In this document: positions 13,870-42,391 of the stretch, piece after piece
How positions within the stretch are numbered: position 1 is the stretch's first letter
Layout: each line of letters opens with the position of its first letter
Source: Sarcina sp. DSM 11001
GTDB taxonomy: Bacteria; Bacillota; Clostridia; Lachnospirales; Lachnospiraceae
DNA: 64,000 nt
Direction: 5' to 3'
Assembly (NCBI RefSeq): GCF_900101015.1
Contig: NZ_FNFZ01000021.1
Coordinates: forward strand, 1 to 64,000
The notes under the pieces: generated by a model
The model's database searches: none
What the model was told of the DNA's origin: nothing
What the model saw: the letters and a program-made list of their open reading frames with translations, nothing else
Program-made: the position numbers and the translations under genes

Positions 13870-13877
13870 AAATGCTT

Positions 13878-14513
13878 ATGAAGAAAAGAATTAGAAGACT
13901 GGTCTGCACCCTGATGGTTATGATGTTTGTGATGGCAGCGGCTATCCCGGCGCTGGCATCCCCGAAGATCCGCGAAGCGGAGTACGAAGGCAGCGGACGT
14001 GTCGATGTCGAATTCAAGACAGATGTCAAATATAAGAACGTCAAGGTCAAAGTCACTGATACCAAAGGTAAAGCCTACAGCACAGTGATCCGGAGCAAGG
14101 ATGAAGATGACCTTACCTTTGAGATCAAGAGCTACAAAAAGGGCGTGACCTATAAATATACCATCACCGGTGTCAAGCAGAAAAACGAGAAGAACTACGG
14201 CCAGGTAAGCGGCAAGGTCACCATCCCTGCGACCACTTCGGCACCCAAAGCCAAAAAGGTTGAGTACGACCGTCATGATAACGAAGTTGACTTCGATTTC
14301 ACCACTGCTGTTCAGTGGAAAGCCCCTAAGGTCACCATTTCCGACGGAAAGAAAAACTATGTGGTCAAGATCCTTGAGAAAGACAACGACGGCATTGAGG
14401 TCAGAGTGAAGACCCTTAAAAAGGGCGCAAGATACACCTACAAGATCACCGGCGTCCGCGTGAAAGGAAACCAGACCTACAAGACTGTTACCGGAACATT
14501 TATCGCCAAATAA
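13878..14513 (+). CDS. Small exported two-repeat (Fn3-like) protein
   Basis: 211 residues from ATG 13878; AAAGGA at 13865-13870 gives a better spacing than ATG 13872. A signal peptide (MKKRIRRLVCTL... cleaved near ALA-SP) is followed by two homologous beta-sandwich-like repeats of about 90 residues, each ending in a Y-Y-KITGV motif (KYTITGVKQK and TYKITGVRVK). The protein is highly basic and probably secreted or wall-associated. No catalytic residues are recognisable. The last codons and stop are duplicated downstream as a 19-bp tandem repeat. Confidence 0.75.
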   Translation: MKKRIRRLVCTLMVMMFVMAAAIPALASPKIREAEYEGSGRVDVEFKTDVKYKNVKVKVTDTKGKAYSTVIRSKDEDDLTFEIKSYKKGVTYKYTITGVKQKNEKNYGQVSGKVTIPATTSAPKAKKVEYDRHDNEVDFDFTTAVQWKAPKVTISDGKKNYVVKILEKDNDGIEVRVKTLKKGARYTYKITGVRVKGNQTYKTVTGTFIAK

Positions 14514-14539
14514 TAAAAATATCGCCAAATAATAAAAAA
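14502..14539 (+). repeat. 19-bp tandem duplication spanning a stop codon
   Basis: Two near-identical units, ATCGCCAAATAATAAAAAT (14502-14520) and its copy at 14521-14539. The first unit holds the last codons (Ile-Ala-Lys) and TAA of the preceding gene. Confidence 0.9.
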
Positions 14540-14575
14540 AGTATAGAGTATTTAGTTCCTGAGCGGATAAAAACA

Positions 14576-14634
14576 CGGGAGCTGCAGCATCGGCTGAGAA
14601 TAGAAATTCCAGCTGTGCAGCAGCTCCCGCTTTT
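14576..14634 (+). terminator. Intrinsic terminator after the Fn3-like gene
   Basis: Perfect 10-base arms CGGGAGCTGC (14576-14585) and GCAGCTCCCG (14620-14629), then CTTTTC. It lies between convergent genes and may serve both. Confidence 0.8.
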
Positions 14635-14648
14635 CATGTTTTTGATGT

Positions 14649-14741
14649 GATGTTTATCGCATTGCGATAATTATGTTGTGATGTTCATTACCTCACGGTA
14701 ATTATGCTGTGGCGCCCGTCACTTCACGGTGATCTTGATCG
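14649..14741 (-). repeat. 31-bp tandem triplication covering the 3' end of the giant surface gene
   Basis: Three units of exactly 31 bases (14649-14679, 14680-14710, 14711-14741). The third encodes the last residues and stop of the minus-strand gene. Each unit contains a small inverted repeat such as TTATCGC/GCGATAA, so the array could also fold as tandem hairpins. Confidence 0.8.
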
Positions 14742-17700
14742 CCTTTACGGCTGAGGCTGAGCTGAAGTTTTCAGTGCCTGCTATAGCTACTTTAACTTTG
14801 ATCGTGTAGGTGCCCTTTTTCAGTCCTTTAGCGACTGTGATCGTTCCTGCCTTGCTGACTTTGATCGATTTGGTTCCGGAACTCTTTGCGTAGGTGACTT
14901 TGCCTTTTCCGACGATCGTAGTCTTGATCTTGACAGTCTGTGCGGCTTTTTTCAGCTTTGAAGCGGATACGGTCGCATTGGCCGTGATGGTCTTGACCTT
15001 CTGGGCAGCCTTTTTGATAACGAGCTTAGCCGCGTTGCTGGTGGCGGCTTTGTAGTTTTTGTCCGCCTTGACATCTGCTTTTACATAATATGTTCCCGCC
15101 TTGGAATGCCCCTTGACAGCCTTTTTGCACTTGGAGTCCGAATAGAACCTATAGGTGATTTTGCCCTTGCTGCCGGTCACAGTCGGCCTGGCCGGGTCGA
15201 TCGTTTTCCCGTTATAGGTCACTGTTTTGTTTTTCAGGGTGGCCTTGGTGGCTGCTTTAGAGATGGTCAGTTTGACGGCTTTACTGGAAGCGCTCTTGTA
15301 GTTTTTGTCTGCCGCCACGAAAGCCTTTGCATAATAGGTACCGGCATTCACCGCTGATTTGACCTGTGCGGCGCACTTGGAATCACTGTAGTATTTATAG
15401 GTGATCTTTCCGGTGCTTCCCTTTACGGACGCTTTTCCGATCGCGGCCGCCTTCCCGTTGTATGTCACGGTTTTGGCTTTCAATGTGACACTGCTGGCGG
15501 CTTTTGCGACATTGACGGTCACGGTGACATTTTCGGCTGCGCTGTACTGCGTGTTGGCTGCGGCGCTGATGGTGATCTTTGCGGTTCCCGCGTTACCCAC
15601 GGTCACCTTGCCGTTTGCATTTACAGCTGCGACGGATGCGTTGTCGGATACATAAGTAAGGGCTGTCTTTGCCTTTGCGCCGATGTTGAAGGGTTTGTCG
15701 CCGTAGGTCACATCAAAGACGGGTGAGGAGACGGTGATTTCCTGAGTCCCGGGTGTGAACCGGACGGCACCGTCGATCACGGCCCAGCGGGCAAGATCGG
15801 AACCGTCTCCGGTGTAGTAGAGCGCGTGCCTCTCGAGATCCAGTCCCTGTCTGACTTCGTCGAGGAGCTGGGAAATGCCTGCGGCATTGGTGTTGAGTAG
15901 CTGCGCGAACTCTTCACCGGTGATCTCCGCATAGGTCTTAGGGAAGGCTTCATCGGTCACATTGGAATAATTGGCTCCGCTTGCCTTCATCTCTGCCGGA
16001 CTGCCTGCCGCAGTGAGTGTGCTGTCACTGTTGTAATAGCAGGCTTTGTTCAGGCTGATGCCGCCCACGAGGCCGTTGATGGCGCCGATCCCGGATGTCG
16101 CTTTGCTTGAAGTAATGTTTCCTGAAGAATAGCAGTTGAGGTGGACGCCGCCTTCCATGCCGTCAATACCGCCGAGGAAGGTCATGTTGCTGCTGGAGGA
16201 GCCGCCGTATACATCACCCAGTGAATAGACATTTACGATTGTCAGGCGGTTGGAGGTTGCCACGATGCCTGCGCCGTATGCCCTGCCGGTATCGGTATAG
16301 GCGTTGACGGTCACATCTGTCCAGCTGTTGGTGATCCTGCCGCGGAGCCCGCTGGCGATCAGGCCGCCTGCGCGGCAGTGGCTGTCCGCTGTCACACCCT
16401 GGACGAATCCTGTGGCGTCGCAGTTGTCGATTTCGACACCGTACTGGCAGGTTCCCGCGAGGGTGCCCGCGTAGAGCTGGTAACGGACATCCGCGTAGAC
16501 CGCGGCATCTCTGAGGTGGATATCCTTCAGAACGACGCGGCGCACATCGTCTGTCGGAGCTTCGTTCGTCGTGTACTCCCCGGAGGTCAGTCCAAAGAGG
16601 GCGGCTGTCATCAGTCCGGAAGGAGCTTCGGCAGAACCGACGGTCAGGCCGCTGATGGTATAGCCGCCGCCGTCAAAGCAGCCGCAGAAAGGATAAGCGC
16701 AGACAGTTTCCTCCTGGTTGTTGATCTCCGCTTCCAGCGCCCAGCCGATCGGGATCCAGTCGATGCCCTCGAGGGAGATGTCTGCGGTCTGTCTGAACCA
16801 GACACCTTCCCAGTCCGTGTCTTCATTGATGGACCAGGCGAGGTACTGGAGCTGTTCAGCGTTTTTGATCAGATAAGGGGAACCCTGGGTTCCTTTGCCG
16901 CCTCCGAACCTGGAGGGATCTGCCGCTTCATAGTGGCTGAAGTCACCATAGGTTCCTTTTGTTTTTGCGGTTTCCAGGGCGGCCTCATAGGCTTCCCCTG
17001 ATCCGGCGCCGCTGAGCACTTCTGTTTCTGTCACAGCGCCTTCGGCGACAGTGATCCTGACAACGGTCGTCTTGTCCTGATCACGTCCATACCAGACTCC
17101 GTCCCGGAGTGCGGCTTCCGGCTTCACATACTGTTCGGCTGCCGGCTGGACATAGGTCACAGCCTGTTTCTCACCGGAGAAGGTGACTGTCTGATCTGTA
17201 TAGACCCACTTGCTGAGGGCGTCCGCGGGAATACCATACTGCGTGATCTCAATCGGATATGCGGTAAATTTATTATTCAGCGCATCCGCAACGGAGGCAT
17301 AGGTCTGGGCTGTATAGCCCTTGAGGTCATCCACGACGCCGCCGGAATAGACCATTTCATCTTCGGATACACCTGCCGGGACCTTCGTGCCGATGGTTTC
17401 GGGAGGATTGATATTCGACCCGTTGACAGTCATGACCGATTCGCTGTTATACCAGCAGCTGTACGCCTTGCCGATACCCGTGACCCAGCCGGATACCATG
17501 CCCGCGTAGTTGGAGAATTCTTTTGTCGTGTTGTCTCCGGAGCCGTAGCAGCCGACGACGTCGCCTGCATCCACTGCGACCAGGGAGCTGACCACTGCCA
17601 TGCCCTCCAGGTCGTTTTCACGGTTTCCACTGCCGTAGACATTGCACAGCGCATAGCTGTTGGCCACAAGCCCTCTGTTGACGAGAGCGGCGATTCCGCC

Positions 17701-20700
17701 GACCTCAGCCAGGGCTTCGCCCAGTACCGTTCCGGACAGATCCATGTCCGTACTGCAGTTTGTGATCGCGCCCTTGTACTGATAAGCGGCGATGCCGCCG
17801 ATAAACAGGTTTCCATTGTCCTGGACAGTCGTGATCTGCCCGCTGACATGGCAGTTGTCGATCCAGGCGCCGGCGCGGGAATCGTCCTGCACGCTCGCCA
17901 TGTAGCCCGCGATACCGGCCACATAGGAGGAGGCCGGCCATGAGGCATTGACAAAAACTTCTGTCAGATTCACATTTTTGACGACAGCCGTGCGTTCCAG
18001 CACGCCGAACAGGGCAAAATAGGGTTGATCTGCGCCCTTGCTGGCGGGTGTTTCGGCGGTTCCCAGATGCATGCCTCTGATCGTATATCCTCTTCCGTCA
18101 AAGGTGCCGGCGAAACCGTATTCGCCCAGACCGACAGGGGTCCAGTCCGCTCCGGAGAGATCGATGTCCGCGCCCAGCGCGATGAAGTAACCGTCGTAAT
18201 TGAGCTTTTCCCCGAGGGATGCGGCAAATGCCAACATCTGGTCTGCTGTCTCAATGATATAAGGATCATTTTCTGTGCCCGTTCCCGACGCAAACACTCC
18301 GGTATCGGGCTGGTCGTTGTACCAGAAATCACCCGCAGGGACGACCCTTCCGTCGGAGACCACCCAGGTCCTGAGTGTAAAGACGTCTGCCAGGCTCGCA
18401 TCTCTCATCTGATTAAAGACACTCTGCATATTTGCGTTGAGCGTATCCGCGAAGGAATCGCCGGTCATTTCCGCGAGGGGGAATGTGCCCGCGGGCTCAA
18501 TGGTCAGGAAGCTTGTGTTCTTTGTGGAGCTTCCTGATGCGCCGGTCAGTGCCTGTGTCGTATAAGAGTCTCCTTCCCAGGCTTCCAGCGTGATGGCGCT
18601 GTCGAGGGCGTGATAGACGTGATCCGCGGATGCTTTTGTCGTCATCTGTCCCGCCAGCGCGCCTGTCCAGGTGTGCAGGCTGGAGGCGAGGCGGTCATAG
18701 GTGACATCGCCGGTCGCATAGCTGTTCCACAGCCTGCCGGGATACATGCCGACAAGGCCGCCCGCGTAGCCGACGAGAGAGTCGCCCTGAGGAGTGCTGC
18801 CCCATACCTGTCCGAACGCGGCTGCGTTGACGATCGCCATGTTATTGCCGCCCATACCGACAAGGCCGCCTGCATAGACGCTCGGATAACCGGCCCCCTT
18901 CGCTTCCGCCGTGACGGAAACATCCGTCCAGCTGTTGCTGATGACGGCGCCCGCCATCGCACGGCCGAACAGACCGCCCGCAAAGAGCATGGAATCATTA
19001 TCCGCCTGGACATTGACCATTCCCTTTGCGGAGACGGAATCCACGACTACACCGATCCCGCTGCTATTGCCCAGAGTATCGCCCGCCAGGGCGCCTGCCC
19101 GCATGGTCGCGTCCGTGGAGACCGCGATGCCGAAATCCGCCAGCGCGAGATCATGGACGTTAGCGGAGATATTGAGCGTGGAGAAAAGGCCTATATTTTC
19201 CCACTCCGCGTGCGGTCCCGTAATGGAAAGACCGGAAACAGTGTGTCCCGCCCCGTCAAAATCGCCGTTAAAGAGCTTGTCTTTGCAGGTGGAGGGTTTG
19301 CTCTCGTCACCGATCGGGTTCCAGGTCTCGATGGCGGAAAGGTCGATATCCGATCCCAGACGGATATACTGGCCTTCATAGGTTGTACCTTCGTCAACGG
19401 AGACCGCAAAGGCGGCCAGCTGGTCTGCTGTCATGATGATAAAAGGATTGGATTCTGTGCCGCTCCCGGATTCGAAAGCCTCGGCATTTTCAGGCACCAG
19501 TGCTTTGTCCAGCGCATTTCTTACCGCCTGAAGGATGCCTTCCGAGGATCTGGTCGCGCCGGTGACCATATCGACATCCGCCGTCTGGGCTTCGATCATG
19601 GCATCCGTCATTTTGACAGCTTCGTTCCAGTACTCATCGGTTTCATTCTGGGAGACCGCTTCGATCTTTGCGATCCTGCCCTCTTCGATGGTGACTGCCA
19701 TGACGATCACGCCGTTGCGTCCGTTTCCTGATCCCTCATATGTTCCGTCACGATACTGGACCTCAGGCGTGGAAAGAAGAGAGGAAGCTCCCTCAGCTCC
19801 ATCTGCCGCCGCCTGTGCTTCAGCGGCAGTCTCTTCCTGTCCTGCCGCATCCGGAACAACTGATCCGTCAGCCGGCAGGAGTGACGGGTTTCCCGCCTCC
19901 GAAGGTTCGGAAGAAACATCCGTGTCCCCTGCCTCCTCAGGGAGCCCGGTTTCCCGGGAACCGCCTTCCGCTGCAGCGTCTACATCTGCGGCGTCTTCCT
20001 CTGAGGTGGCTTCCGCTGCGGCATCTTCCTCTGTGGCGTATTCCTCTGTGGCAGGAGTGCCTTCTGCAGGCTCGGACAGGATGCTCTCGTCCCCTTCCTC
20101 TCCGGAACCATCCCCGGAGAGCGGGTCAACAAAGGACCCGTCATCATCCGCAGTCACTGCGTCTTCTGAAGCTTCAGAAGGAAGGTCTGCATTTCCTTCC
20201 TCTCCGGAACCATCTCCGGAGAGCGGGTCAACAAAGGACCCGCCATCATCTGCAGTCACTGCATCTTCTGAAACTTCAGAAGGAAGGTCTGCATTTCCTT
20301 CCTCTCCGGAACCATCTTCGGAGAGCGGGTCAACAAAGGACCCGTCATCATCCGCAGTCACTGCGTCTTCTGAAACTTCAGAAGGAAGGTCTGCATCCCC
20401 TTCCTCTGCAGGTATTACCTCATCGTAAGAGGTCTCTCCCGCGGAAGAAGAATCCTGCTCCGGATCCGCTTCGAGGATATCCCCTTCATCTGCCGTCTGT
20501 ACCTGAGACTGTCCGGCATCAAGGCTGTCATACTCTTCTCCTGATGAGTATGACTCCGCGGACTCCGAACCAAGCCCCGGTTCGTATACTTCCTCAAACT
20601 GCGCAGGGACACCATCCATACTGCCCGGTTCACCTGCGTAAACAGCTGCCTGCGGGATGGCCAGCCCTATGGCAAGGGCAAATGCCAGAAGCCAGGACAC

Positions 20701-20736
20701 TGGTTTCCGGAGGCACGCTTTGCGTTTCCTTTTCAT
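14719..20736 (-). CDS. Giant exported FMN_bind / GLUG beta-helix surface protein
   Basis: About 2005 residues. The start is at 20736 because AAAGGAG lies just upstream and a signal peptide (MKRKRKACLRKP... to AVYA-GE) begins there. The order is: an acidic region with three 34-residue repeats (about 111-214); an FMN_bind domain (about 325-408) with the flavinylation-type motif DMVTGATRSS, whose Thr395 would carry FMN; long GLUG/beta-helix regions with GSGTESNPFII-type starts and GGLVGM turns (about 425-1200); a second FMN_bind-like segment (about 1208-1280) without the T-G-A-T motif; more GLUG; and C-terminal Ig-like and YNGK repeat domains (about 1670-2005). Flavin would be attached by an ApbE enzyme, which is not in this window. 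It is probably an extracytoplasmic electron carrier or a surface redox protein. Confidence 0.88.
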   Translation of the reverse strand: MKRKRKACLRKPVSWLLAFALAIGLAIPQAAVYAGEPGSMDGVPAQFEEVYEPGLGSESAESYSSGEEYDSLDAGQSQVQTADEGDILEADPEQDSSSAGETSYDEVIPAEEGDADLPSEVSEDAVTADDDGSFVDPLSEDGSGEEGNADLPSEVSEDAVTADDGGSFVDPLSGDGSGEEGNADLPSEASEDAVTADDDGSFVDPLSGDGSGEEGDESILSEPAEGTPATEEYATEEDAAAEATSEEDAADVDAAAEGGSRETGLPEEAGDTDVSSEPSEAGNPSLLPADGSVVPDAAGQEETAAEAQAAADGAEGASSLLSTPEVQYRDGTYEGSGNGRNGVIVMAVTIEEGRIAKIEAVSQNETDEYWNEAVKMTDAMIEAQTADVDMVTGATRSSEGILQAVRNALDKALVPENAEAFESGSGTESNPFIIMTADQLAAFAVSVDEGTTYEGQYIRLGSDIDLSAIETWNPIGDESKPSTCKDKLFNGDFDGAGHTVSGLSITGPHAEWENIGLFSTLNISANVHDLALADFGIAVSTDATMRAGALAGDTLGNSSGIGVVVDSVSAKGMVNVQADNDSMLFAGGLFGRAMAGAVISNSWTDVSVTAEAKGAGYPSVYAGGLVGMGGNNMAIVNAAAFGQVWGSTPQGDSLVGYAGGLVGMYPGRLWNSYATGDVTYDRLASSLHTWTGALAGQMTTKASADHVYHALDSAITLEAWEGDSYTTQALTGASGSSTKNTSFLTIEPAGTFPLAEMTGDSFADTLNANMQSVFNQMRDASLADVFTLRTWVVSDGRVVPAGDFWYNDQPDTGVFASGTGTENDPYIIETADQMLAFAASLGEKLNYDGYFIALGADIDLSGADWTPVGLGEYGFAGTFDGRGYTIRGMHLGTAETPASKGADQPYFALFGVLERTAVVKNVNLTEVFVNASWPASSYVAGIAGYMASVQDDSRAGAWIDNCHVSGQITTVQDNGNLFIGGIAAYQYKGAITNCSTDMDLSGTVLGEALAEVGGIAALVNRGLVANSYALCNVYGSGNRENDLEGMAVVSSLVAVDAGDVVGCYGSGDNTTKEFSNYAGMVSGWVTGIGKAYSCWYNSESVMTVNGSNINPPETIGTKVPAGVSEDEMVYSGGVVDDLKGYTAQTYASVADALNNKFTAYPIEITQYGIPADALSKWVYTDQTVTFSGEKQAVTYVQPAAEQYVKPEAALRDGVWYGRDQDKTTVVRITVAEGAVTETEVLSGAGSGEAYEAALETAKTKGTYGDFSHYEAADPSRFGGGKGTQGSPYLIKNAEQLQYLAWSINEDTDWEGVWFRQTADISLEGIDWIPIGWALEAEINNQEETVCAYPFCGCFDGGGYTISGLTVGSAEAPSGLMTAALFGLTSGEYTTNEAPTDDVRRVVLKDIHLRDAAVYADVRYQLYAGTLAGTCQYGVEIDNCDATGFVQGVTADSHCRAGGLIASGLRGRITNSWTDVTVNAYTDTGRAYGAGIVATSNRLTIVNVYSLGDVYGGSSSSNMTFLGGIDGMEGGVHLNCYSSGNITSSKATSGIGAINGLVGGISLNKACYYNSDSTLTAAGSPAEMKASGANYSNVTDEAFPKTYAEITGEEFAQLLNTNAAGISQLLDEVRQGLDLERHALYYTGDGSDLARWAVIDGAVRFTPGTQEITVSSPVFDVTYGDKPFNIGAKAKTALTYVSDNASVAAVNANGKVTVGNAGTAKITISAAANTQYSAAENVTVTVNVAKAASSVTLKAKTVTYNGKAAAIGKASVKGSTGKITYKYYSDSKCAAQVKSAVNAGTYYAKAFVAADKNYKSASSKAVKLTISKAATKATLKNKTVTYNGKTIDPARPTVTGSKGKITYRFYSDSKCKKAVKGHSKAGTYYVKADVKADKNYKAATSNAAKLVIKKAAQKVKTITANATVSASKLKKAAQTVKIKTTIVGKGKVTYAKSSGTKSIKVSKAGTITVAKGLKKGTYTIKVKVAIAGTENFSSASAVKAIKITVK
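20096..20403 (-). repeat. In-frame 102-bp tandem repeats in the giant surface protein
   Basis: Three 34-residue copies (EEGNADLPSEVSEDAVTADD plus GSFVDPLSGDGSG) with few nucleotide differences. The repeat forms an acidic spacer between the signal peptide and the FMN_bind domain. Confidence 0.88.
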
Positions 20737-20843
20737 AACTTCTCCTTTCTGCATGTCACCTGGTGGTTAAAGAGTGAAGCGCTGGCCCGGCTTCATGAAG
20801 GTTTACGTTACTCCACGCCCTACCGTGGGCGTGTAGAGATAAC

Positions 20844-20969
20844 GTGCGAAAACCCATTCCAACAATGCGAAGCTTTGTTATCGTTGCGAGATGGGATTTT
20901 CGTCGTAAAACTCGGGCTTTTCGCGAAAAGCGCGCGAAAAACACCTCGAATTTCGTGCCGGTCTGAAAA
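20844..20969 (-). repeat. Dispersed upstream element, copy B
   Basis: The counterpart of 8808-8921. The identical blocks are 20945-20969 and 20854-20872. Read on the minus strand it points at the giant surface gene, about 110 bases from its start codon, which is the same relative orientation as copy A. It contains a hairpin CGCTTTT-CGCG-AAAAGCG-like segment. Nearer the gene lies a CGCCC-N6-GGGCG hairpin (20816-20831). Confidence 0.75.
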
Positions 20970-21060
20970 GTAACAGGTTTACTCCACGAGGCCCAACCTT
21001 CAAAAAATGCGCATTGACGGTTTCCTGAACACCGCTTACTCTTCGTATAAAAGTATCTTC

Positions 21061-21098
21061 TAATAGTTAGTAATTGCTAACTATTAGACTAGACTAAT
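21061..21098. promoter_or_regulatory. Two overlapping palindromic operator-like sites (O1, O2)
   Basis: O1 is a perfect inverted repeat TAATAGTTAG-N6-CTAACTATTA (21061-21086). O2 is ATTAG-N6-CTAAT (21083-21098) and shares the end of O1. Both have the core TTAG-N6-CTAA also found at 24131, 28353, 28430 and 30573. The sites lie midway between the divergent giant surface gene and dus, so either could be the target. No regulator of known specificity for this motif is in the window. Confidence 0.65.
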
Positions 21099-21141
21099 AT
21101 ATCTCTGTGGCCTTTTTATGTCAATCGGAAAACGTTTCCGG

Positions 21142-21330
21142 GTTAAAAAGGCTGGGCGGAGAAGCCTGGGTTAAAAAGCCCGGGTGAAAAAGCCCGGATG
21201 GAGAAAGCCGGGTTAAAAAAGCCAGGTGAAAAAGGCCGCGCGGAGTAGACCGGGCAAAGAGCCGGGCGAATTCGCAGTGTATTATTCACAGCGTATTAAT
21301 ATGCAGTGTATTAATTCGCTGTGTATTAAA
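21142..21330 (+). repeat. Two adjacent minisatellites in the giant-gene/dus intergenic region
   Basis: 21142-21256 is built from a diverged ~14-base unit, GGTTAAAAAGCCCG, in about seven copies. 21271-21330 is built from a GCAGTGTATTAAT-like unit in about four copies. No gene is seen in this 650-base region apart from the repeats and operators. Confidence 0.65.
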
Positions 21331-21383
21331 AGGAAACAATGTAATATAATTGTCTAAAAATGAAGTGCATGAAAAGGAAAAAT

Positions 21384-22415
21384 ATGACAAGTATTTATTT
21401 TGCTCCTCTGGAAGGGATCACCGGTTTTGCTTTTAGAAATACCCACTATGCCGCCTTTGCGTCAGTGGAGAAATATTATACTCCCTTTACGGCTCCCAAC
21501 TACACTCACCATTGGAAGACCCGTGACCGGGAGGATGTCGACCCTGCCCATAACAAGGATATTCCTCTGATTCCGCAGATCCTGACAAACCGGGCAGATG
21601 ATTTCCTGTGGGCCGCCGGAGAACTGGTTGAGATGGGGTACAGAGAGATCAATCTGAACCTGGGGTGCCCCATGCCGACTGTCGTCAAAAAACACCGCGG
21701 TTCCGGACAGCTCGAAGACCTCGATGCTCTGGATCTTTTTCTGGAACAGATTTGTACCGGCATGGAAAAATACGGTTTGTCTGATGAAAAAGGAAACATC
21801 AGAACAGGAAATGATGAAAAAACCTGTTCAGAAGGAAAACTGCGGTTTTCCATCAAGACCCGTATCGGTCTGCGCACCGCGGAAAACGCCGCGGAACTTC
21901 TGAAGATCTACAACAGGTATCCGCTCTGTGAATTGATCGTGCATCCGCGCACTCAGACAGATCTCTATAAAGGGACTCCGGACCTGGAGACTTTTGAGAT
22001 GATCCTGGAGGACAGCGCGCACCCGGTCGTATATAACGGAGATATTTTTACTATAGAGGATTACACAGAGCTTATTACACGCTTTCCTGAGTGCCCTGCG
22101 GTCATGATCGGACGCGGCCTGATCGCTAATCCTGCGCTTGCCAGGGAGATCCGCGGCGGAGCGCCGCTGGAAAAAGAGGAACTGCGCCGATACCATGATT
22201 CACTCTATATGGCTCTGCGCCAGACCCTGCCCGGGGCTGCACCCCTGATCGGAAAAATGAAGGAACTCTGGTTTTACATGGGCAGGAATTTCGCTGATTC
22301 TGACCGTTTTCTCAAAGAAATCCGCAAGGCCAGGGACCTGGTCCGGTATGAGGCGGCGGTGCGTACCCTGTTTGCACAGGGTAAGTTTTTACCGGGAAAG
22401 AACTTCACTTTTTAA
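21384..22415 (+). CDS. dus: tRNA-dihydrouridine synthase family protein
   Basis: About 343 residues from ATG 21384, preferred because AAGGAAA sits 4-10 bases upstream; in-frame ATGs at 21360 and 21369 are possible. FMN-dependent TIM-barrel enzymes of this family reduce uridines in tRNA D-loops. Visible features are the N-terminal APLEGITG motif, NLGCP with catalytic Cys95 (family MxLNxGCP), KTRIGLR, ELIVHPRTQ and VMIGRGLIANP phosphate-binding residues. It is closer to clostridial Dus relatives than to a clear DusA/B/C. The 3' end, including the stop codon, is part of a tandem duplication. Confidence 0.88.
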   Translation: MTSIYFAPLEGITGFAFRNTHYAAFASVEKYYTPFTAPNYTHHWKTRDREDVDPAHNKDIPLIPQILTNRADDFLWAAGELVEMGYREINLNLGCPMPTVVKKHRGSGQLEDLDALDLFLEQICTGMEKYGLSDEKGNIRTGNDEKTCSEGKLRFSIKTRIGLRTAENAAELLKIYNRYPLCELIVHPRTQTDLYKGTPDLETFEMILEDSAHPVVYNGDIFTIEDYTELITRFPECPAVMIGRGLIANPALAREIRGGAPLEKEELRRYHDSLYMALRQTLPGAAPLIGKMKELWFYMGRNFADSDRFLKEIRKARDLVRYEAAVRTLFAQGKFLPGKNFTF

Positions 22416-22527
22416 AAAATCAACAGTGAGGGTGGGCATTTGCCCGGCTGCGGGTCTTTACCGGGAAAGAACATTTTTTTAAATATAATCAACAGAGAGG
22501 GCTGGCATTTGCCCGGCTGCGGGTTAT
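22390..22527 (+). repeat. ~69-bp tandem duplication spanning the dus stop codon
   Basis: Unit 1 (22390-22458) contains the last codons (PGKNFTF) and TAA of dus. Unit 2 (22459-22527) repeats it with few changes. Both contain GGGCATTTGCCC or GGCATTTGCCC inverted repeats. Confidence 0.88.
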
Positions 22528-22550
22528 AAATCGTGGGAATGGAGATCATT

Positions 22551-24147: not shown

Positions 24148-24331
24148 AATTCAGGCCTTCAGGATTAAGGAAAAATATGACGAAGGGAAAATATGACGGT
24201 TTTCGGCCGGGGGGGGGATGATGATGACTTTTAGTACGGCGGGAATATCGGCAGCTGGATTTGATGTATAGAAAACTGCCGGTTTTCATTTTTCTAATTA
24301 TTTTTCAAACTTCAAAAGGGTAGATTGAGAT

Positions 24332-24832
24332 ATGAGTACGGAGATAAAGGGCAGCAGATGTGTTGAGCAGGCAGGAACTTATCCGTCGGAAAGCAGTCTT
24401 GCCGGAACAGCTTGTTCAGCCAGTAATCGTTCAGATGCTGAGCAGAATAGTTATTCGTCTGAGCAGAAAAGCTTTTCTGCTGAGCAGAAAGAAGTGGCAG
24501 ACAAGACTTATCAGCTGATTATGTGCAATCTGGAGAGGCATCTTACAATCGTGGAAATGGCAAGAAATCTGCATGTTTCCCCTACTCAGGTCAAAGTGTG
24601 CTTTCGTAAAGTATATGGAGTTCCGGTGTTTACTTTTGCCCGGAAGCGCAGAATGGAAATGGCTGCGAAACTGCTCGCCGAGACGGATGAATCTATTCTG
24701 GAAATCGCTGGACGGATCGGGTACGAGAACGGAAGCAAGTTCGCAAGGGCTTTTCGGGATGTCATGGGTATTTCACCGGGCAGATACAGGCGGATAATGC
24801 TTATGCAAAAAGAAGAGTCGGAAGCGGTCTGA
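24332..24832 (+). CDS. AraC-type helix-turn-helix protein lacking a sensor domain
   Basis: 166 residues. The first ~55 are Ser/Gln/Glu-rich with short internal repeats (SSEQKSFSAEQK) and no recognisable ligand domain. The rest is an AraC/XylS double HTH (LTIVEMARNLHVSPTQVKVCF ... ILEIAGRIGYENGSKFARAF, closing with GISPGRYRR). It is half the usual AraC length, so it probably binds DNA without a small-molecule domain. It is first in a row with the DUF6110 and P-type ATPase genes, consistent with local control of the metal locus. Weak SD AAAAGGG 11 bases upstream. Confidence 0.83.
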   Translation: MSTEIKGSRCVEQAGTYPSESSLAGTACSASNRSDAEQNSYSSEQKSFSAEQKEVADKTYQLIMCNLERHLTIVEMARNLHVSPTQVKVCFRKVYGVPVFTFARKRRMEMAAKLLAETDESILEIAGRIGYENGSKFARAFRDVMGISPGRYRRIMLMQKEESEAV

Positions 24833-24886
24833 GCAGATCAGATAGGGCAATTCATCTCCTGCGCCTGTGGGCAGATTTGTCTAATT

Positions 24887-25078
24887 GGAGCCAAAAGAGC
24901 CAGAACTAACCTGCCCTGTGCCTTTTTGGGGGCTGAAAGAGACAGAACTAACCCGGTCTGTGTCTTTTTGGAGCCAAAGGAGAGAAAACTAACCTGTCCT
25001 GTGCCTTTTTGGAGCCAAAAGAGTCTGGACTAACCTCTGTCCGGTGCCTTTTTGGAGTCGAAGAAATTAAAACTAACT
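24887..25078 (+). repeat. 41-43 bp tandem repeats between the AraC-type and DUF6110 genes
   Basis: Four full units and a partial one, of the form GGAGCCAAAAGAG...AACTAACC...TTTTT. Each carries an ACTAACC string (the half-site sequence of the palindromes nearby) and ends in five T. No gene is seen between 24833 and 25181. Confidence 0.8.
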
Positions 25079-25181
25079 CATTATCATGATTTTGTGGTCG
25101 ACAGGGAGCCTGTGATCGATAGGCAAATGACCTGGACAGACACGATTTCATAATTAGAGAACAGAATCAGGAGGTATTGAG

Positions 25182-25496
25182 ATGTTTTTTGATTTTAAGT
25201 GGAAAAACTGCAGATGGCTCGGAGCTGGTGTGCTCCTCGGAACCTACGGAGTGAAGCTCCTTACCAGCAGGGATATGAAGAAACTGTATACCCAGGGAAC
25301 AGCAGCAGTCCTGAGGATGAAAGATGAAGTGCTCAAAGACGTGACCCTGCTCCGCGAAAACTGTGAGGACATCGCAGCAGATGCGAAGGAAATTAATGAG
25401 CAGCGCCAGGCGGAATATGATGCTCAGCAGATTGAGGACGCAAAGGCTCTTCTGGCTTCAGCAGAAGCGGAGACAGCAGCGGCTGCAGAGGCGTAA
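25182..25496 (+). CDS. DUF6110-like membrane-anchored small protein
   Basis: 104 residues with one hydrophobic N-terminal segment (about 12-28, LGAGVLLGTYGVKLL) and a long charged helix predicted as coiled coil, ending in an Ala/Glu-rich tail. This matches the DUF6110 pattern known beside P-type ATPases in Clostridia. The strong SD AGGAGG at about 25171-25176 supports ATG 25182. It probably acts with the ATPase downstream, perhaps as a small subunit or metal-handling partner. The function is not established. Confidence 0.75.
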   Translation: MFFDFKWKNCRWLGAGVLLGTYGVKLLTSRDMKKLYTQGTAAVLRMKDEVLKDVTLLRENCEDIAADAKEINEQRQAEYDAQQIEDAKALLASAEAETAAAAEA

Positions 25497-25523
25497 AACG
25501 AGATGTAAACCCATAACCCGGAC

Positions 25524-25643
25524 TTAGCCCTGAGTGAATGTGCCCTGAGGGACTAAGCCCTGAGGGAATGTTCCTTGAGGGACTAAATCCTGGGGAAATG
25601 TTCCTTGAGAGACTAGGCCCTGAGGGAATGTGCTTTGACGGAG
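25524..25643 (+). repeat. Four tandem 30-bp repeats between DUF6110 and the P-type ATPase
   Basis: Units of exactly 30 bases (25524, 25554, 25584, 25614) with consensus TAAGCCCTGAGGGAATGTTC plus CTTGAGGGAC. They are noncoding and unrelated to the array at 24887. Confidence 0.85.
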
Positions 25644-25723
25644 TGCGCCTTGAGGGGTTGGCCGGATAAGGAAAAAAGAGACAGCGCCTGTGACAGGGGC
25701 GTAAAACTGGTAAAAGAAAAAGA

Positions 25724-27799
25724 ATGAAATGCAGAATATTACATGAGTCCAGAGGGAGGATGCGGGTGCGTATGCTGCAGCGCCGTATGACCGGTGCTCA
25801 GGCGGACATGCTGCACTATTTCCTGCTCTCTTTGGACGGCGTTACAAAAGTGACAGTTTCAGAGCGTACGGCGGACGCGACGATTTTGTACAATGAAAAA
25901 TCCTGCGGCCGTGAAAAACTCATTGCGGAGCTGTCCGGTTTTGGATATGAGCGCACAGAAGTAGCCGTTCCGGAGCATACGGGACGGGAACTCAACCGTG
26001 TCTATGAGGAAAAACTATTCTTTATGGTTTTGGGCCGGGCGGTGCGTGAGCTTATTTTGCCGAACCCGCTGAGGCGGGCTTACTGCCTGTGCAGAGCGGC
26101 TCATTATCTGCGGGCAGGCCTCCAATGTCTGCTCAGAGGAAGGCTGGAAGTGCCTGTGCTGGATGCGACTACGATCGCTGTCTCACTCCTGAGGGAGGAT
26201 TACGGCACAGCGGGTTCAGTCATGTTTCTCCTGGATGCCGGAGGACTTCTGGAGGAGTGGACCCATAAGAAATCCGTGGACGATCTGGCCAGGCGGATGT
26301 ACCTCAATGTGGACAAGACCTGGATCAGGACGCCGGAGGGCGAAGTCCTGGTTTCCGTCCGTGATGTGGAGCCTGGAGACTGCATCGTGGTCAGGACAGG
26401 AAACGTGATTCCTCTTGACGGATCCGTGATGAGCGGAGAGGGAAGCGTGAACCAGGCTTCAATGACTGGAGAATCCCTTCCTGTCCGCAAGGCGGAGGGC
26501 GCGTATGTCTATGCGGGCACAGTCCTCGAGGAGGGCGAACTGGAGATCCGGGTCGACAAGGCTCTGGGCAGCGGCCGCTATGACAAGATCGTAAATATGA
26601 TCGAAGACTCTGAGAAACTGAAGTCCGCGACAGAGAGCCGCGCATCCCACCTGGCGGACTCCCTCGTGCCTTGGTCCCTGGGAGGCACAGCCCTGACCTG
26701 GCTGCTCACCCGCAATGTCACGAGGGCGCTTTCCTTCCTGATGGTGGATTTCTCCTGCGCGCTGAAGCTGGCAATGCCGATCTGTGTCCTCTCTGCCATG
26801 AGGGAGTGCAGTGACCATCATATCAACGTCAAAGGCGGTAAGTTCCTGGAGGCAGTTGCTCAGGCCGATACGATCGTCTTTGACAAAACCGGAACCCTGA
26901 CCTACGCCACACCGAGTGTGCGCGAGATCATTTCCTTTGGGGATCATGATGAGAATGAGCTTCTGCGCCTTGCGGCCTGCCTGGAGGAACATTTCCCCCA
27001 CTCGATCGCCAATGCGGTCGTCAGGGAGGCTGCGGAGAGAGGCCTGATTCACGAGGAGCGGCACACGAAGGTGGAATATGTCGTGGCACACGGGATCGCC
27101 AGTTCCATCAATGGAGTCCGGGCGCTGATCGGAAGCTGGCATTTTATTTTTGAGGATGAAAAATGTACGCTCCCCGAGGGCACACAGGAAAAATATGATG
27201 CCCTTCCCGACGACTGCTCGCTGCTTTATCTTGCTCTGGACAACAAACTGGCGGCAGTGATCTGTATCGAGGATCCGATCCGGGAAGAGGCGAAGAGCGT
27301 TGTGGAAGCCCTCCACGGCGCAGGCTTCTCGAGAGTGGTCATGATGACAGGAGACAGCCGCAGGACCGCCGAGGCTGTCGCCGGCCGCCTCGGAATGGAT
27401 GAATTCTATGCGGAAGTCCTCCCGGAGGATAAGGCTGCCTTTGTCAAAAAAGAACACGAGGCGGGACGTAAGGTCGTGATGATCGGAGACGGGATCAACG
27501 ATTCCCCGGCCCTCTCGGAGGCAGACGCAGGAATCGCTATTTCGGCCGGAGCTGCGATTGCAAGAGAGATCGCCGACATCACGATCTCTGCAGAAGACCT
27601 GCGGGAGCTTGTCGTACTCAGACGCCTGAGCAATGCCCTGATGGACAGGATCAACGGAAATTACCGGAGGATCATGACCTTTAACGGCCTGCTGATCGCC
27701 CTGGGCCTCCTGGGCTACATGCCCTCTGCCCGCGCGGCTCTGCTGCATAATCTTTCCACCATCTATTTCAGCGTGGACAGCATGAAAGACCTGCTCTGA
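25724..27799 (+). CDS. P1B-type heavy-metal-transporting ATPase, non-CPC subtype
   Basis: 691 residues. A degenerate HMA-like N-terminal domain without CxxC (about 1-75) is followed by transmembrane helices, an actuator with TGESLP, phosphorylation site D387 (FDKTGTLTY), MTGDS, and the hinge GDGINDSPALSEA. The metal-site helix reads DFSCALKLAMP, with a lone Cys instead of CPC, and the nucleotide-site motif is FPHSIANAV where most P1B pumps have H-P. Both are typical of a poorly characterised clostridial subgroup. An exporter of a transition metal such as iron, manganese or zinc is likely, but the specificity cannot be read. The 3' end is tandemly duplicated. Confidence 0.88.
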   Translation: MKCRILHESRGRMRVRMLQRRMTGAQADMLHYFLLSLDGVTKVTVSERTADATILYNEKSCGREKLIAELSGFGYERTEVAVPEHTGRELNRVYEEKLFFMVLGRAVRELILPNPLRRAYCLCRAAHYLRAGLQCLLRGRLEVPVLDATTIAVSLLREDYGTAGSVMFLLDAGGLLEEWTHKKSVDDLARRMYLNVDKTWIRTPEGEVLVSVRDVEPGDCIVVRTGNVIPLDGSVMSGEGSVNQASMTGESLPVRKAEGAYVYAGTVLEEGELEIRVDKALGSGRYDKIVNMIEDSEKLKSATESRASHLADSLVPWSLGGTALTWLLTRNVTRALSFLMVDFSCALKLAMPICVLSAMRECSDHHINVKGGKFLEAVAQADTIVFDKTGTLTYATPSVREIISFGDHDENELLRLAACLEEHFPHSIANAVVREAAERGLIHEERHTKVEYVVAHGIASSINGVRALIGSWHFIFEDEKCTLPEGTQEKYDALPDDCSLLYLALDNKLAAVICIEDPIREEAKSVVEALHGAGFSRVVMMTGDSRRTAEAVAGRLGMDEFYAEVLPEDKAAFVKKEHEAGRKVVMIGDGINDSPALSEADAGIAISAGAAIAREIADITISAEDLRELVVLRRLSNALMDRINGNYRRIMTFNGLLIALGLLGYMPSARAALLHNLSTIYFSVDSMKDLL

Positions 27800-27885
27800 A
27801 ACAGAGTATCTCGGTGTGGACAACATGAAGAATCTGCTCTGAAACAGAGTATCTCGGTGTGGATAGCATGTAGGACCTGCTTTTC
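27771..27885 (+). repeat. 43-bp tandem repeat spanning the P-type ATPase stop codon
   Basis: Units at 27771-27813 and 27814-27856, with a partial third to about 27885. The first encodes SVDSMKDLL and the stop. The later copies lie in noncoding sequence. Confidence 0.9.
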
Positions 27886-27895
27886 TTCATCGCGG

Positions 27896-28268
27896 GATTG
27901 TACCCATGATGATTGTACCCATGATGATTGTACTCATGATGAAGCTAGTTTCCCTTTTGCGCGTGTTACCCATGTTTGAAGACGTGGGTATTACGTGATA
28001 AAGACAATTAATTTTCGGATTTTTGCCTTTGGGAAAAAGGAATGTGAAACAGGGTTGTTGCATTAGCTGAAAGCTCAGCCAGGCAACAACCCTTTAAATT
28101 GCTCTTTTGAAGTGACCTTGGGCCTCCAGATCCGAAATATCGCTTTACTATTTCGGGTCATGGGTGACCTCGGGCTTGCGAATCCGAAATATCGAATTTA
28201 CTTTTTCACAACATAGGTGACCTCATGCCACCGGCCCCGAAAGATCTCTTTACTTTTTTGTAGTATGG
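27896..28268 (+). repeat. Two minisatellites downstream of the ATPase gene
   Basis: 27896-27942 holds three copies of a 15-base unit, GATTGTACCCATGAT. 28113-28268 holds three copies of a ~53-base unit starting TGACCTCGGGC and containing ATCCGAAATATCG. A hairpin TACCCATG/CGTGGGTA lies at 27967-27991. No gene is seen between 27800 and 28641. Confidence 0.8.
28051..28097 (+). terminator. Intrinsic terminator downstream of the ATPase gene
   Basis: Eleven-base perfect arms AGGGTTGTTGC (28051-28061) and GCAACAACCCT (28083-28093), followed by TTAAA. Its T-run is short. Confidence 0.65.
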
Positions 28269-28336
28269 AACATTCAAAAGCAAGGACTGTTACCTGGGGA
28301 TTTTTTCAACGTTAGAGTAAATGAGTCTTTTTGGAG

Positions 28337-28447
28337 TTGTTTTGCCAGTAATGGTTAGCTATACTTAACCCAACGATTAGAGCAGATACAGACAGAGGCG
28401 CCTTGCAAGGCGCTTTATTCAGGGGAATAGGTTAGACAATTCTAACC
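28337..28447. promoter_or_regulatory. Promoter with operators O5 and O6 around a terminator
   Basis: A weak promoter TTGTTT (28337-28342), 17 bases, TATACT (28360-28365) overlaps O5 GGTTAG-N6-TTAACC (28353-28370). After a hairpin at 28398 comes O6, a perfect GGTTAG-N6-CTAACC (28430-28447). The order operator-hairpin-operator copies that at 24071-24147. It probably controls the DUF2325, DUF3793 and flavodoxin genes. Confidence 0.55.
28398..28417 (+). terminator. Hairpin between O5 and O6
   Basis: The self-complementary 16-mer GCGCCTTGCAAGGCGC (28398-28413), followed by TTTATT. It lies about 30 bases downstream of the -10 element, so it could act as an attenuator. Confidence 0.6.
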
Positions 28448-28504
28448 ATCCTGTAAAGAAACATAACCCAGATAAAAGGAATAACCTGAACCGGGTCTGG
28501 CTAA

Positions 28505-28625
28505 ACCAGGACTGAACGAAAAAAGGACTGAAATAAACCAGGACTGACTATACCAGGAATAAACTACAGCAGAAATAAACTACACCAGAAATAAATTAAA
28601 GCAAGAATAAACTAAACCAGGAATT
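28505..28625 (+). repeat. ~16-bp minisatellite before the DUF2325 gene
   Basis: About eight diverged copies of an AATAAACTACACCAGA-like unit. They run up to the SD of the DUF2325 gene. Confidence 0.7.
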
Positions 28626-28641
28626 AATAAAGAGGTGGAAG

Positions 28642-28935
28642 ATGAGCGTGATTATCCTTGGCGGAAATGAATGTATGGAGCGCCAGTACAAAGATCTCTG
28701 TAAAGAGTACAAGTGCCGGGCTAAGGTTTTTATCAAACCTTCCGGGAGCCTTAGAAACAAGCTGGGGAATCCTGATCTGATGATTTGTTTCACCGGAGCC
28801 CTGTCCCATAAAGTTTTGAAATGCGCCCAGAGCGAGATTAAGGGAAAAAACACAATGGTAGAGCATTCCAGGACCGCATCTATCGCGGCTCTGCGCAGCA
28901 TTCTTGAGAAACACACCCTCCAACAGGGAGCATGA
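28642..28935 (+). CDS. DUF2325 family protein
   Basis: 97 residues, beginning MSVIILGGNE and containing a Rossmann-like beta-alpha pattern (DLMICFTGALSHKVL). This matches the DUF2325 family, commonly found next to FeoA/B, DUF3793 and flavodoxin genes in Clostridia. An N-terminal GGNE motif and conserved His/Cys residues are visible. Biochemical function is unknown; its gene company suggests a role in iron or redox homeostasis. SD AGAGGTGG upstream. The coding 3' end is partly duplicated further downstream. Confidence 0.82.
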   Translation: MSVIILGGNECMERQYKDLCKEYKCRAKVFIKPSGSLRNKLGNPDLMICFTGALSHKVLKCAQSEIKGKNTMVEHSRTASIAALRSILEKHTLQQGA

Positions 28936-28998
28936 CTTAAACGCCGCATCGTCGTTGCAGAACAATATAAAACACACCCTTCAGCAGGGAGCATGACA
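28905..28998 (+). repeat. Imperfect duplication spanning the DUF2325 stop codon
   Basis: A 27-base block AAACACACCCT...AGGGAGCATGAC occurs at 28910-28936 (with the last codons and stop) and again at 28970-28997. Weaker similarity extends about 30 bases further upstream of each copy. Confidence 0.75.
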
Positions 28999-29040
28999 GA
29001 CATGTAGATTGCGACTAATAACGGAGCCGGAGGAATACAG

Positions 29041-29604
29041 ATGTCAGATGAAATGCTTGTGCAAAACGGTTCACCGACATTGGCGGGAATCAAGACCGGG
29101 AATCTGTTCACATGTCCATATACGGACAGACGGCAGACAATGCATGAACTGCAGCAGCTGAACAAGAGACTCGTGCCGAAAGGACTGCGGATCCTGCCCC
29201 TGCGTTACTCAGCGGAAAGGGTACTTGTATATCTCTATCGGTCGTCCCGCCTGGAAAAGGATCTGTCGGAGAAGGAAGCCGTAGAGTTGTTGGAAAACGC
29301 AGGTTACCGCCATGAGAACGCGAATCAGTGTGTCATAGAGCTGATTCGTCGTATCAATGACGTGGACACTGAATTTCCGCACGAGATCGGTCTGTTTCTC
29401 AGTTATCCCCCGGAAGATGTGCGTGGATTTATTTCTCACAGAGAAAACAGGTCAGTCGGCTGCAAGCTGGTGGGAACCTGGCGCGTTTACGGTGATGTTC
29501 AGAAAGCCAGAAAGACTTTTGAGGAATACCGGAAATGCACCGAAAATTACTGCAGACAGTGGTCCAGCGGAGTACCGCTGTCAAGGCTCGTTGTTGCCGT
29601 GTAA
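29041..29604 (+). CDS. DUF3793 family protein
   Basis: 187 residues with the DUF3793 pattern: an N-terminal region GIKTGNLFTCPY, a central LRILPLRYSAERVLVYLYR, and a conserved FPHEIGLFLSYPPEDVRGFI followed by a Cys-containing segment (CKLVGTWRVYGD). The family regularly accompanies DUF2325 and flavodoxin in anaerobic Firmicutes and is often regulated with iron genes. Its molecular role is not known. GGAGGA upstream supports ATG 29041. It lies 105 bases after the DUF2325 gene in the same direction, so co-transcription is likely. Confidence 0.83.
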   Translation: MSDEMLVQNGSPTLAGIKTGNLFTCPYTDRRQTMHELQQLNKRLVPKGLRILPLRYSAERVLVYLYRSSRLEKDLSEKEAVELLENAGYRHENANQCVIELIRRINDVDTEFPHEIGLFLSYPPEDVRGFISHRENRSVGCKLVGTWRVYGDVQKARKTFEEYRKCTENYCRQWSSGVPLSRLVVAV

Positions 29605-29871
29605 AACATCTCGGCCGGGTACTTCTGAATCCAGTCCCAGAGCTGTACCAGGGTTAACTTCCCCGTGAGTAGACACAGAGTTTTCCAGCGTATCCTCTGT
29701 CACCTGCCGGGGCCTGCCCTCCCCGTGAAGAGACAGAGAAGCGTCCCTTGTCTCCTGTCAGTTCGGGCAGTCTCAGGAATTGTTTCCTGATCCGACCTTA
29801 TGATGTTTACGGATATGCAGATTTTGGCAAAGTAAAAAAGTGACAAAACAAAAAGAAAGGAAATCGAAAGA

Positions 29872-30294
29872 ATGAGTAAAATTGCAGTTGTGTTCTGGAG
29901 CGGTACAGGCAATACAGAGGCTATGGCGAATGCTGTAGCGGCGGGCGCGCAGGAAAAGGGGGCGGAAGTGACCGTCATGGGTCCTTCCGATTTCGGCGCG
30001 GCTGCAGTGGCCGGTTATGACGGAATTGCCTTTGGATGCCCCTCAATGGGCGTAGAGCAGCTCGAGGAAGCTGACTTCCAGCCGATGTGGGATGAGGTAA
30101 AGGGAGAGCTCTCCGGTAAAAAGGTCGTCCTTTTTGGCTCCTATGGCTGGGGAGACGGCGAGTGGATGCGCACCTGGGAAGACGAAGCAAAAGGCGCAGG
30201 TGCAGTCCTGGCAGCCGACTGCGTGATCGTCAACGGCGCTCCGGATGATGAGGGTGAAGCAAACTGCAAGGCGCTCGGAGCTGCGCTGATATAA
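29872..30294 (+). CDS. Flavodoxin
   Basis: 140 residues. The FMN phosphate-binding loop is WSGTGNTEAMA (about 9-19). The isoalloxazine loops are GCPSMGVEQLEE and GSYGWGDGEWM, and the C-terminal strand is typical of short-chain clostridial flavodoxins. It is a low-potential one-electron carrier that replaces ferredoxin when iron is scarce. This fits its place behind DUF2325/DUF3793 and the operator-containing leader. SD AAAGGAAA about 10 bases upstream. Confidence 0.93.
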   Translation: MSKIAVVFWSGTGNTEAMANAVAAGAQEKGAEVTVMGPSDFGAAAVAGYDGIAFGCPSMGVEQLEEADFQPMWDEVKGELSGKKVVLFGSYGWGDGEWMRTWEDEAKGAGAVLAADCVIVNGAPDDEGEANCKALGAALI

Positions 30295-30441
30295 GGAATG
30301 GGTCCATTTCCGGTTTCTGCTGCTTTGCTTCTCCGTTCATACAGTCTGCAGTTGCCATGATTAACCCCGTATAATCACTGCAGCAGTTCCTTCTTACACA
30401 AAGCTGATCAGAATATGAATACTGCCGGTATGGATTCACAT

Positions 30442-30473
30442 GCCTCCTGCCTGAAACGGCAGGAGGCCTTTTT
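30442..30473 (+). terminator. Intrinsic terminator after flavodoxin
   Basis: Perfect ten-base arms GCCTCCTGCC (30442-30451) and GGCAGGAGGC (30458-30467), six-base loop, then C and five T. Confidence 0.92.
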
Positions 30474-30567
30474 GGCTCTTTAATTTTTCTTTTTTAACTA
30501 TTTTCAATCTTCCTTTTTTTCTATCTTCGACTTCGTCGGAGAAGGTGTAAAAAAAGAAAAAGTGCGT

Positions 30568-30592
30568 TATAATAGTTAATGCAAGCTAACCA
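30568..30592 (+). promoter_or_regulatory. -10 element with operator-like site O7 upstream of the ABC exporter
   Basis: TATAAT (30568-30573) directly abuts TAGTTAA-N6-CTAACCA (30573-30592). It has the same six-base spacer as the other sites and shares the flank CTAACCATCCTG with O6. No good -35 is visible. The rest of 30295-30788 has the flavodoxin terminator and a duplicated CAGCAGACAATYG motif near 30668 and 30749. Confidence 0.55.
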
Positions 30593-30788
30593 TCCTGCCT
30601 GAAGCGTGCCCGCACCGGAAATAACAGGCAGGTAATGATCGGTGGACGATCATCGCAATGCTGGGGACAGCAGACAATCGTCGTTATACAGAGGTCATCA
30701 GGCAGCAATGGAAGACATCAAAGACATCAGACATGGAACAGTCGGCAGCAGACAATTGACTGAAAAAACCGGGGAATCTGGAAAAACC

Positions 30789-31499
30789 ATGGAAACCACA
30801 GTGCTATTGGAATTAAGGGATATCCGTAAAGCTTTTGGAAAAGGGGAAAACCGTGTGGAAGTGCTGCGCGGAATCAGTCTCGATGTAAAAAAAGGAGAGT
30901 TCTGTGTTTTGCTTGGACCTTCCGGTTCCGGCAAGTCAACGCTCCTCAATATTATCGGGGGGATCGACAGTACGGACAGCGGGGAGATTCTGATCGGCGG
31001 AGAACGGATGAGCGCGATGGGAGAGAAGGAACTGACCCGTTACCGGCGACGTCACCTGGGATATATTTTTCAGATGTACAACCTGATCCCTAATCTGACT
31101 GTCAGGGAGAATATCGAAGTCGGGGCTTATCTGGGCAGGGATCCGCTGGATGTCGACGAAATCCTGCATACGCTCGGGCTGTACGAGCACCGCAGAAAGC
31201 TTCCCAACCAGCTTTCGGGAGGCCAGCAGCAGAGGACGAGCATAGGCAGGGCAATCATCAAGAATCCCGATATCCTGCTTTGCGACGAGCCGACAGGAGC
31301 GCTGGACTACAATACGTCCAGAGAGATCCTGCGTCTCATTGAAAAAATCAGCCTGCAGTATGGGACCACGATCATCATGGTCACCCACAATGAGGCGATA
31401 GGGGCTATGGCGGACACGGTGATCCGGCTGAGAGACGGCTCGATCCGCGACCGCACGGTAAACGTTACCAGGATGCCGGCAGACCAGTTGGAATGGTAA
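30789..31499 (+). CDS. MacB/LolD-type ABC transporter ATP-binding protein
   Basis: 236 residues from ATG 30789, where similarity to the family begins. In-frame starts at 30642 and 30708 would add a low-complexity extension encoded by a repeat-containing region. Walker A is GPSGSGKST (43-51), then a Q-loop (IFQMYNL), signature LSGGQQQR, Walker B ILLCDEPTG and H-loop VTHN. It pairs with the FtsX-type permease at 31728. Such exporters act in lipoprotein, peptide or antimicrobial efflux. The 3' end and stop lie in a 65-bp tandem duplication. Confidence 0.92.
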   Translation: METTVLLELRDIRKAFGKGENRVEVLRGISLDVKKGEFCVLLGPSGSGKSTLLNIIGGIDSTDSGEILIGGERMSAMGEKELTRYRRRHLGYIFQMYNLIPNLTVRENIEVGAYLGRDPLDVDEILHTLGLYEHRRKLPNQLSGGQQQRTSIGRAIIKNPDILLCDEPTGALDYNTSREILRLIEKISLQYGTTIIMVTHNEAIGAMADTVIRLRDGSIRDRTVNVTRMPADQLEW

Positions 31500-31572
31500 T
31501 TGTGATTATCCGCGACCGCACGGTAAATGTTACCAGGATGCCGGCAGACCAGTCGGAATGGTCATTATGTCA
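31443..31572 (+). repeat. 65-bp tandem duplication spanning the ABC ATPase stop codon
   Basis: Units 31443-31507 and 31508-31572 differ at only a few positions. Unit 1 encodes the last ~18 residues (SIRDRTVNVTRMPADQLEW) and the stop. A further short duplication, ATTATCTGAAGTYAAGGGT, follows at 31613-31652. Confidence 0.93.
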
Positions 31573-42365: not shown

Positions 42366-42391
42366 GTAATCGCCGATAGGAGGAAACAGAA

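Follow-up and report, generated by a model that had tools for sequence, protein, structure and literature searches.

It is probable (roughly 0.8) that the window, by which we mean the whole stretch of 64,000 nucleotides that was analysed, comes from a clade in which short tandem duplication is frequent and is filtered by selection, and that the gene-tail echoes in it are the share of these duplications that falls across stop codons. On the best reading of the data, a process directed at gene ends is not needed. According to this model, the related species group would often copy short stretches (unit of 12 to about 110 bp) head to tail, and selection would decide which copies stay. Inside genes, just units of whole codons would survive. 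A copy across a start codon would add a second start and ribosome site and would mostly be lost. When the copied stretch includes a stop codon, the gene would remain intact in the first copy, so that the duplication would be harmless and the second copy would be a decaying tail echo.

Results

Six gene tails are duplicated in the window

Six loci, at which an earlier note had described gene 3' ends duplicated across the stop codon, were inspected directly and by Tandem Repeats Finder. On the plus strand, two copies of a 19-bp unit (14501-14538, 100% identical) lie across the stop at 14513 of the gene at 13872-14513, two copies of a 69-bp unit (22388-22524, 87% matches) lie across the stop at 22415 of a gene of the Dus (dihydrouridine synthase) family, a 43-bp unit is present 2.5 times (27773-27881) across the stop at 27799 of a P-type (E1-E2) ATPase gene, and a 65-bp unit is present 1.9 times (31443-31566, 94%) across the stop at 31499 of an ABC-transporter ATPase gene. 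The 28-bp tail of a DUF2325 gene, also on the plus strand (28909-28936, stop at 28935), is repeated once after a spacer (28970-28997). On the minus strand, three degenerate 31-bp copies (14643-14733) run into the 3' end of an FMN_bind-domain gene (14719-20754, stop at 14719).

Five of these repeats are obvious. The 31-bp set, which is absent from the Tandem Repeats Finder list at a minimum score of 30, is degenerate yet significant: its best 60-base stretch, compared with itself at an offset of 31, has 43 matches in 60, a value reached in none of 1000 local shuffles. The DUF2325 copies are identical at 26 of 28 positions, with starts 61 bp apart, and their score was reached in 0 of 1000 shuffles. 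The copies are adjacent and head to tail, as in a minisatellite or a tandem duplication, with the exception of this pair at 28905, which is spaced and therefore not adjacent. All six stop-end repeats are real, and the view that the duplications are recurrent and mutually unrelated in sequence was confirmed.

Pfam domains above the cut-off were found for five of the six genes (FMN_bind, Dus, E1-E2 ATPase, DUF2325 and ABC_tran), which supports the tail-duplicated genes as real genes; the gene at 13872-14513 matches just fn3 and CopC, both under the curated cut-off. Each degenerate copy at 14643-14733 has a short inverted repeat, which is most perfect in the copy farthest from the gene.

Duplications are common elsewhere in the window and the genome

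Counts were made with a gene caller and an ungapped tandem-array detector of our own. The scan of the window gave 30 arrays at a score of 14, against 0 in one shuffle; eight are inside genes, 19 are intergenic and three span stops (14501, 27773 and 31443). This ungapped scan files the array at 22388 as intergenic and omits those at 14649 and 28905, which are degenerate or spaced, so that three of the six loci are missed as stop-spanning. Duplication of the same kind is seen at 24878-25057, a purely intergenic 83/41-bp array away from any stop. The arrays at 28112-28224 (52 bp) and 40245-40406 (31/63 bp) are also purely intergenic, and a 102-bp unit repeated 3.1 times in frame inside a minus-strand gene (20093-20407) is the coding counterpart. 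Other long in-frame arrays inside genes lie at 6363-6637 (78 bp), 6737-6980 (36 bp) and 58288-58554 (36 bp). About eight copies of a 17-bp unit (57972-58109) lie in the gap that precedes the called gene at 58272. The near absence of such repeats from the translation cluster, which had been thought to deserve explanation, is unremarkable: intergenic DNA in the region 41050-57811 amounts to 2026 bp, in which a density of 1.32 per kb predicts about 2.7 arrays and 0 were found.

For this gut bacterium the assembly is a draft of 4.15 Mb in 76 contigs, and the window lies on contig C24. A sample of 1,288,799 bases (31% of the genome, 894 genes) was scanned with one detector, gene starts being taken from our simple caller and not from a standard annotation. 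It contains 463 arrays, of which 168 lie within genes and 259 between them, 31 cross a stop and 5 cross a start. Arrays make up 10.0% of the intergenic DNA in this sample, and the extra copies 6.3%. The unit is divisible by three in 167 of the 168 arrays inside genes, and in 11 of the 31 that span stops, which is the share expected by chance; a filter on frame thus acts almost completely within genes and not at all across stops. Among 112 exact arrays with a unit of at least 12, the overlap at the junction is 0-3 bases in 69, and it is 4 or more in 38% of them against 4% of simulated random duplications, partial third copies being counted as overlap.

Stops are crossed far more often than starts

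The contrast between the 31 stop-spanning and 5 start-spanning arrays was also seen by gapped local alignment, in which 21 of 842 gene tails are echoed downstream (cross-gene control 0) and 4 of 838 gene heads are echoed upstream (control 0.3; tail versus head, P = 8e-4). Duplications thus cross stops far oftener than starts. For a null expectation, arrays were re-placed at random within the same intergenic regions, to which 281 of the 295 non-inside arrays could be assigned, 14 being dropped. On this basis 30 stop-spanning arrays compare with 24.3 expected (P = 0.13), and 5 start-spanning arrays with 19.2 expected (0 of 1000), a strong depletion. For arrays with a score of at least 18, the values are 24 against 18.9 expected at stops and 5 against 14.4 at starts; for units of at least 18, they are 22 against 19.4 and 4 against 15.5. 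When nine relatives and 80 rpoC loci are pooled with the sample, stops stand at 41 against 33.6 (P = 0.12), a 1.2-fold excess that is not significant, and starts at 7 against 27.9 (P = 2.6e-6). Placement over all noncoding DNA gives an expectation of 16.6 for the 30 stop-spanning arrays (0 of 1000 permutations); compared with average intergenic DNA, stops are therefore enriched in arrays. The earlier note had named a rate equal to random placement as the result that would speak against it, and such equality is found within the same regions but not over all noncoding DNA.

Array edges are about as dense in the final 25 coding bases (1.80 per kb) as in the 25 bases that follow them (2.02), whereas at the start their density falls from 1.74 per kb outside the gene to 0.15 inside it. 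Regions flanked by two stops have the highest density (1.74 per kb), those between a start and a stop a lower one (1.25), and those flanked by two starts the lowest (0.96). In bins of 8 bases, the three that cover -16 to +7 relative to the stop hold 15, 15 and 16 array edges, and the five that cover +8 to +47 hold 8 to 11 each; this bump was noticed post hoc.

Tail copies compared with orthologous gene ends

The P-type ATPase gene has the same end residues in six relatives, none of which has the echo (0/6). Since these relatives end alike without it, the gene copy is the original and the echo derived. Among the listed orthologs, stop-spanning arrays were found in 0 of 14 for the ATPase, 0 of 5 for DUF2325, 0 of 2 for Dus and 2 of 10 for the ABC-ATPase, in a pool limited to matches of at least 45% identity that reach the C-terminus, where spaced echoes may be missed. 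No orthologs of the first two genes (13872-14513 and the FMN_bind gene) were found in this pool. The tail unit of the ABC-ATPase gene is 65 bp in the window, 35 bp in about five copies in the relative G010 and 83 bp in G018; each echo matches its own species' tail, so that the three events were independent. In the sequences compared, the tail copies are derived and species-specific. For stop-spanning genes of the window's genome with a reciprocal best match, recurrence at the orthologous end was seen in one of two in G010, one of two in G018 and none of five in G008, the ABC gene alone being common.

From the ABC-ATPase stop to the next ATG there are 5 bases in G011 and 8 bases in G001, and the gap between the ATPase and permease genes is, by our own gene calls, 228 in the window, 154 in G010 and 76 in G018. 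Because a very short gap can grow only by copying across a stop or a start, and starts are closed to such copying, this suggests how operon gaps open.

A high load is a trait of the clade

In the window's genome, which is of the Lachnospiraceae, each kb of intergenic DNA carries 1.32 short tandem duplications on average, against 0.14 in 80 rpoC loci of the family. The relatives were represented by samples of 71 to 200 kb each. Per 100 kb, non-inside arrays are dense in the window's genome (22.9), G010 (32.1), G018 (12.6) and G008 (11.0), and sparse in G015 (5.3), G016 (3.1), G020 (0.9) and G017 (0); two outgroups from the order have 2.3 (G025) and 3.0 (G037). The samples of G009 (4 non-inside arrays in 1214 intergenic bases) and G014 (0 in 351) are too small to be placed. 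Of 1131 genes in the four dense genomes, 29 have a tail echo, and of 319 genes in the four genus members with sparse arrays, none has one. Among the best 80 rpoC matches listed, the nearest relative is a Lachnospiraceae MAG from goat jejunum, at 85% identity. A phage search with an rpoC piece gave one weak match.

The presence or absence of the repair genes searched for does not explain the load. The MutS domain was found in 25 of 25 genomes searched, the C-terminal domain of MutL in 38 of 41 and the large subunit of exonuclease VII in 39 of 41 (38 above the cut-off), and all three are present in the window's genome; Ku was found in 1 of 25 and is absent from it. The MutL_C profile match is split in six of the 41 genomes (G000, G008, G009, G010, G014 and G018), including the four sampled genomes of high density (G000, G008, G010 and G018). 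In the MutL proteins inspected, which were those of five of the six (not G018) and the unsplit one of G015, the split corresponds to a loop insertion in the C-terminal domain. Judged by its motifs, MutL looks otherwise complete. Since the loop lies in a complete-looking protein, the split is better taken as a marker of the clade.

Discussion

Gene tails might be copied when replication slips or DNA breaks at sites of transcription termination or of collision between transcription and replication. A process targeted in this way to gene ends would agree with the difference between stops and starts, with the enrichment over placement in all noncoding DNA, with the bump of array edges around the stop, and with the three independent tail duplications of one ABC-ATPase gene. 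However, the number of stop-spanning arrays is near that expected within the same regions, the first 60 bases past the stop are echoed downstream more often (63/839) than the last 60 coding bases (21/842), and 259 of the 295 arrays outside genes do not touch a stop. Such a process is unlikely, and initiation at gene ends, as proposed in the earlier note, is unsupported. The same note had also suggested that the echo is retained because it serves as a spare terminator or stop codon or as part of the 3' UTR. The inverted repeats inside the 14643-14733 copies and the tolerance of tail echoes at many genes would fit such a recruited function. Against it, the next in-frame stop is no nearer than usual, as it would be in a backup for read-through: the median distance is 36 bases after the 31 stop-spanning genes and 36 at all 864 stops (P = 0.74). 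Nor was the stable hairpin of a tandem terminator found in the unit, whose folding energy is that of the same interval at other stops (mean z 0.08 over 30 of 31 units, the T-run not being part of the score). The coding part of the unit is kept no better than the rest, 683 of 768 positions (0.889) being identical in the former and 848 of 966 (0.878) in the noncoding part, and the tested orthologs of the ATPase, DUF2325 and Dus genes have no stop-spanning array. We therefore regard a spare role of the echo as very unlikely.

Even less probable is that the duplications are driven by insertion of a dispersed element near gene ends. A palindromic, REP-like intergenic family is present, and both of its copies in the window (27953-28004 and 31637-31673) are downstream of tail-duplicated genes. 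A profile search with 17 seed copies gave 29 matches in 1.29 Mb of the genome (23 per Mb); among the dense relatives there were 5 in G010 (140 kb), 1 in G008 (200 kb) and 0 in G018 (71 kb), and the sparse genomes had 1 in 423 kb. The element is present in 21 intergenic regions, of which 19 are next to a stop. However, other arrays occur in 8 of these 21 regions against 7.4 expected for like length, and stop-spanning arrays in 2 against 0.7 (P = 0.14), so that an association was rejected. Two of the six tail units were searched for at other places in the genome, since a REP or MITE unit would be found at many: the stretch 14620-14730 matches only itself, and 31300-31800 matches itself and four stretches of 35-48 bp, which are outside the 31443 duplication and within the REP-like element. 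Assembly artefact is the remotest of these explanations, even though the assembly is a draft in 76 contigs. Substitutions distinguish the copies (median identity outside genes 0.92), and the reading frame kept by all but one of the arrays inside genes would not be respected by an assembler, which excludes assembly error as a general cause.

We therefore favour frequent short duplication that is filtered by selection. The copying itself may be due to polymerase slippage or template switching, and the depletion at starts is presumably caused by selection. What seemed to be a device of gene ends becomes a measured neutral pattern, in which the stop is transparent to short duplications, the start is not, and coding sequence lets whole codons pass only. 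It is also conceivable, though we hold this tentatively, that short tandem duplication is a main source of new intergenic DNA in the clade, under a clade-specific rise of the duplication rate. In tight operons the gene tail would then be the sole safe template, and gaps of a few bases would first grow by copying across the upstream stop, ratcheting open from the tails. Intergenic duplications are roughly ten times as dense in this species group as in the sample of the family, and the group offers a natural setting for studying the growth of bacterial intergenic DNA and the control of short tandem duplication.

Literature searches, which reached few subscription papers, yielded no earlier report of tandem duplication of gene tails. 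Two surveys, one of satellites (PMC6749651) and one of close direct repeats (PMC4060949) in prokaryotes, describe in their accessible parts arrays that are unique, unit lengths that are multiples of three, and an excess of repeats in intergenic DNA. The nearest case among the unique short satellites and minisatellites of prokaryotes covered there is Clostridioides difficile (PMC6749651). Compared with those minisatellites, the arrays described here are mostly intergenic with two to three copies, and their position relative to stops and starts was measured; gene ends are not treated in the part of that paper available to us. The survey of close direct repeats, as far as its accessible part goes, gives a general statistic without the contrast between stops and starts (PMC4060949). 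The TAACTGA direct repeats of marine Beggiatoaceae are intergenic, as here, and stop-overlapping cases have been reported; the accessible text describes one fixed heptamer, mostly just upstream of starts, for which a regulatory role was proposed (PMC4679880). Unlike the TAACTGA repeats, the units found here differ from locus to locus and avoid starts. The kind of repeat is already known, and what is new is the load carried by this clade and the contrast between its stops and starts.
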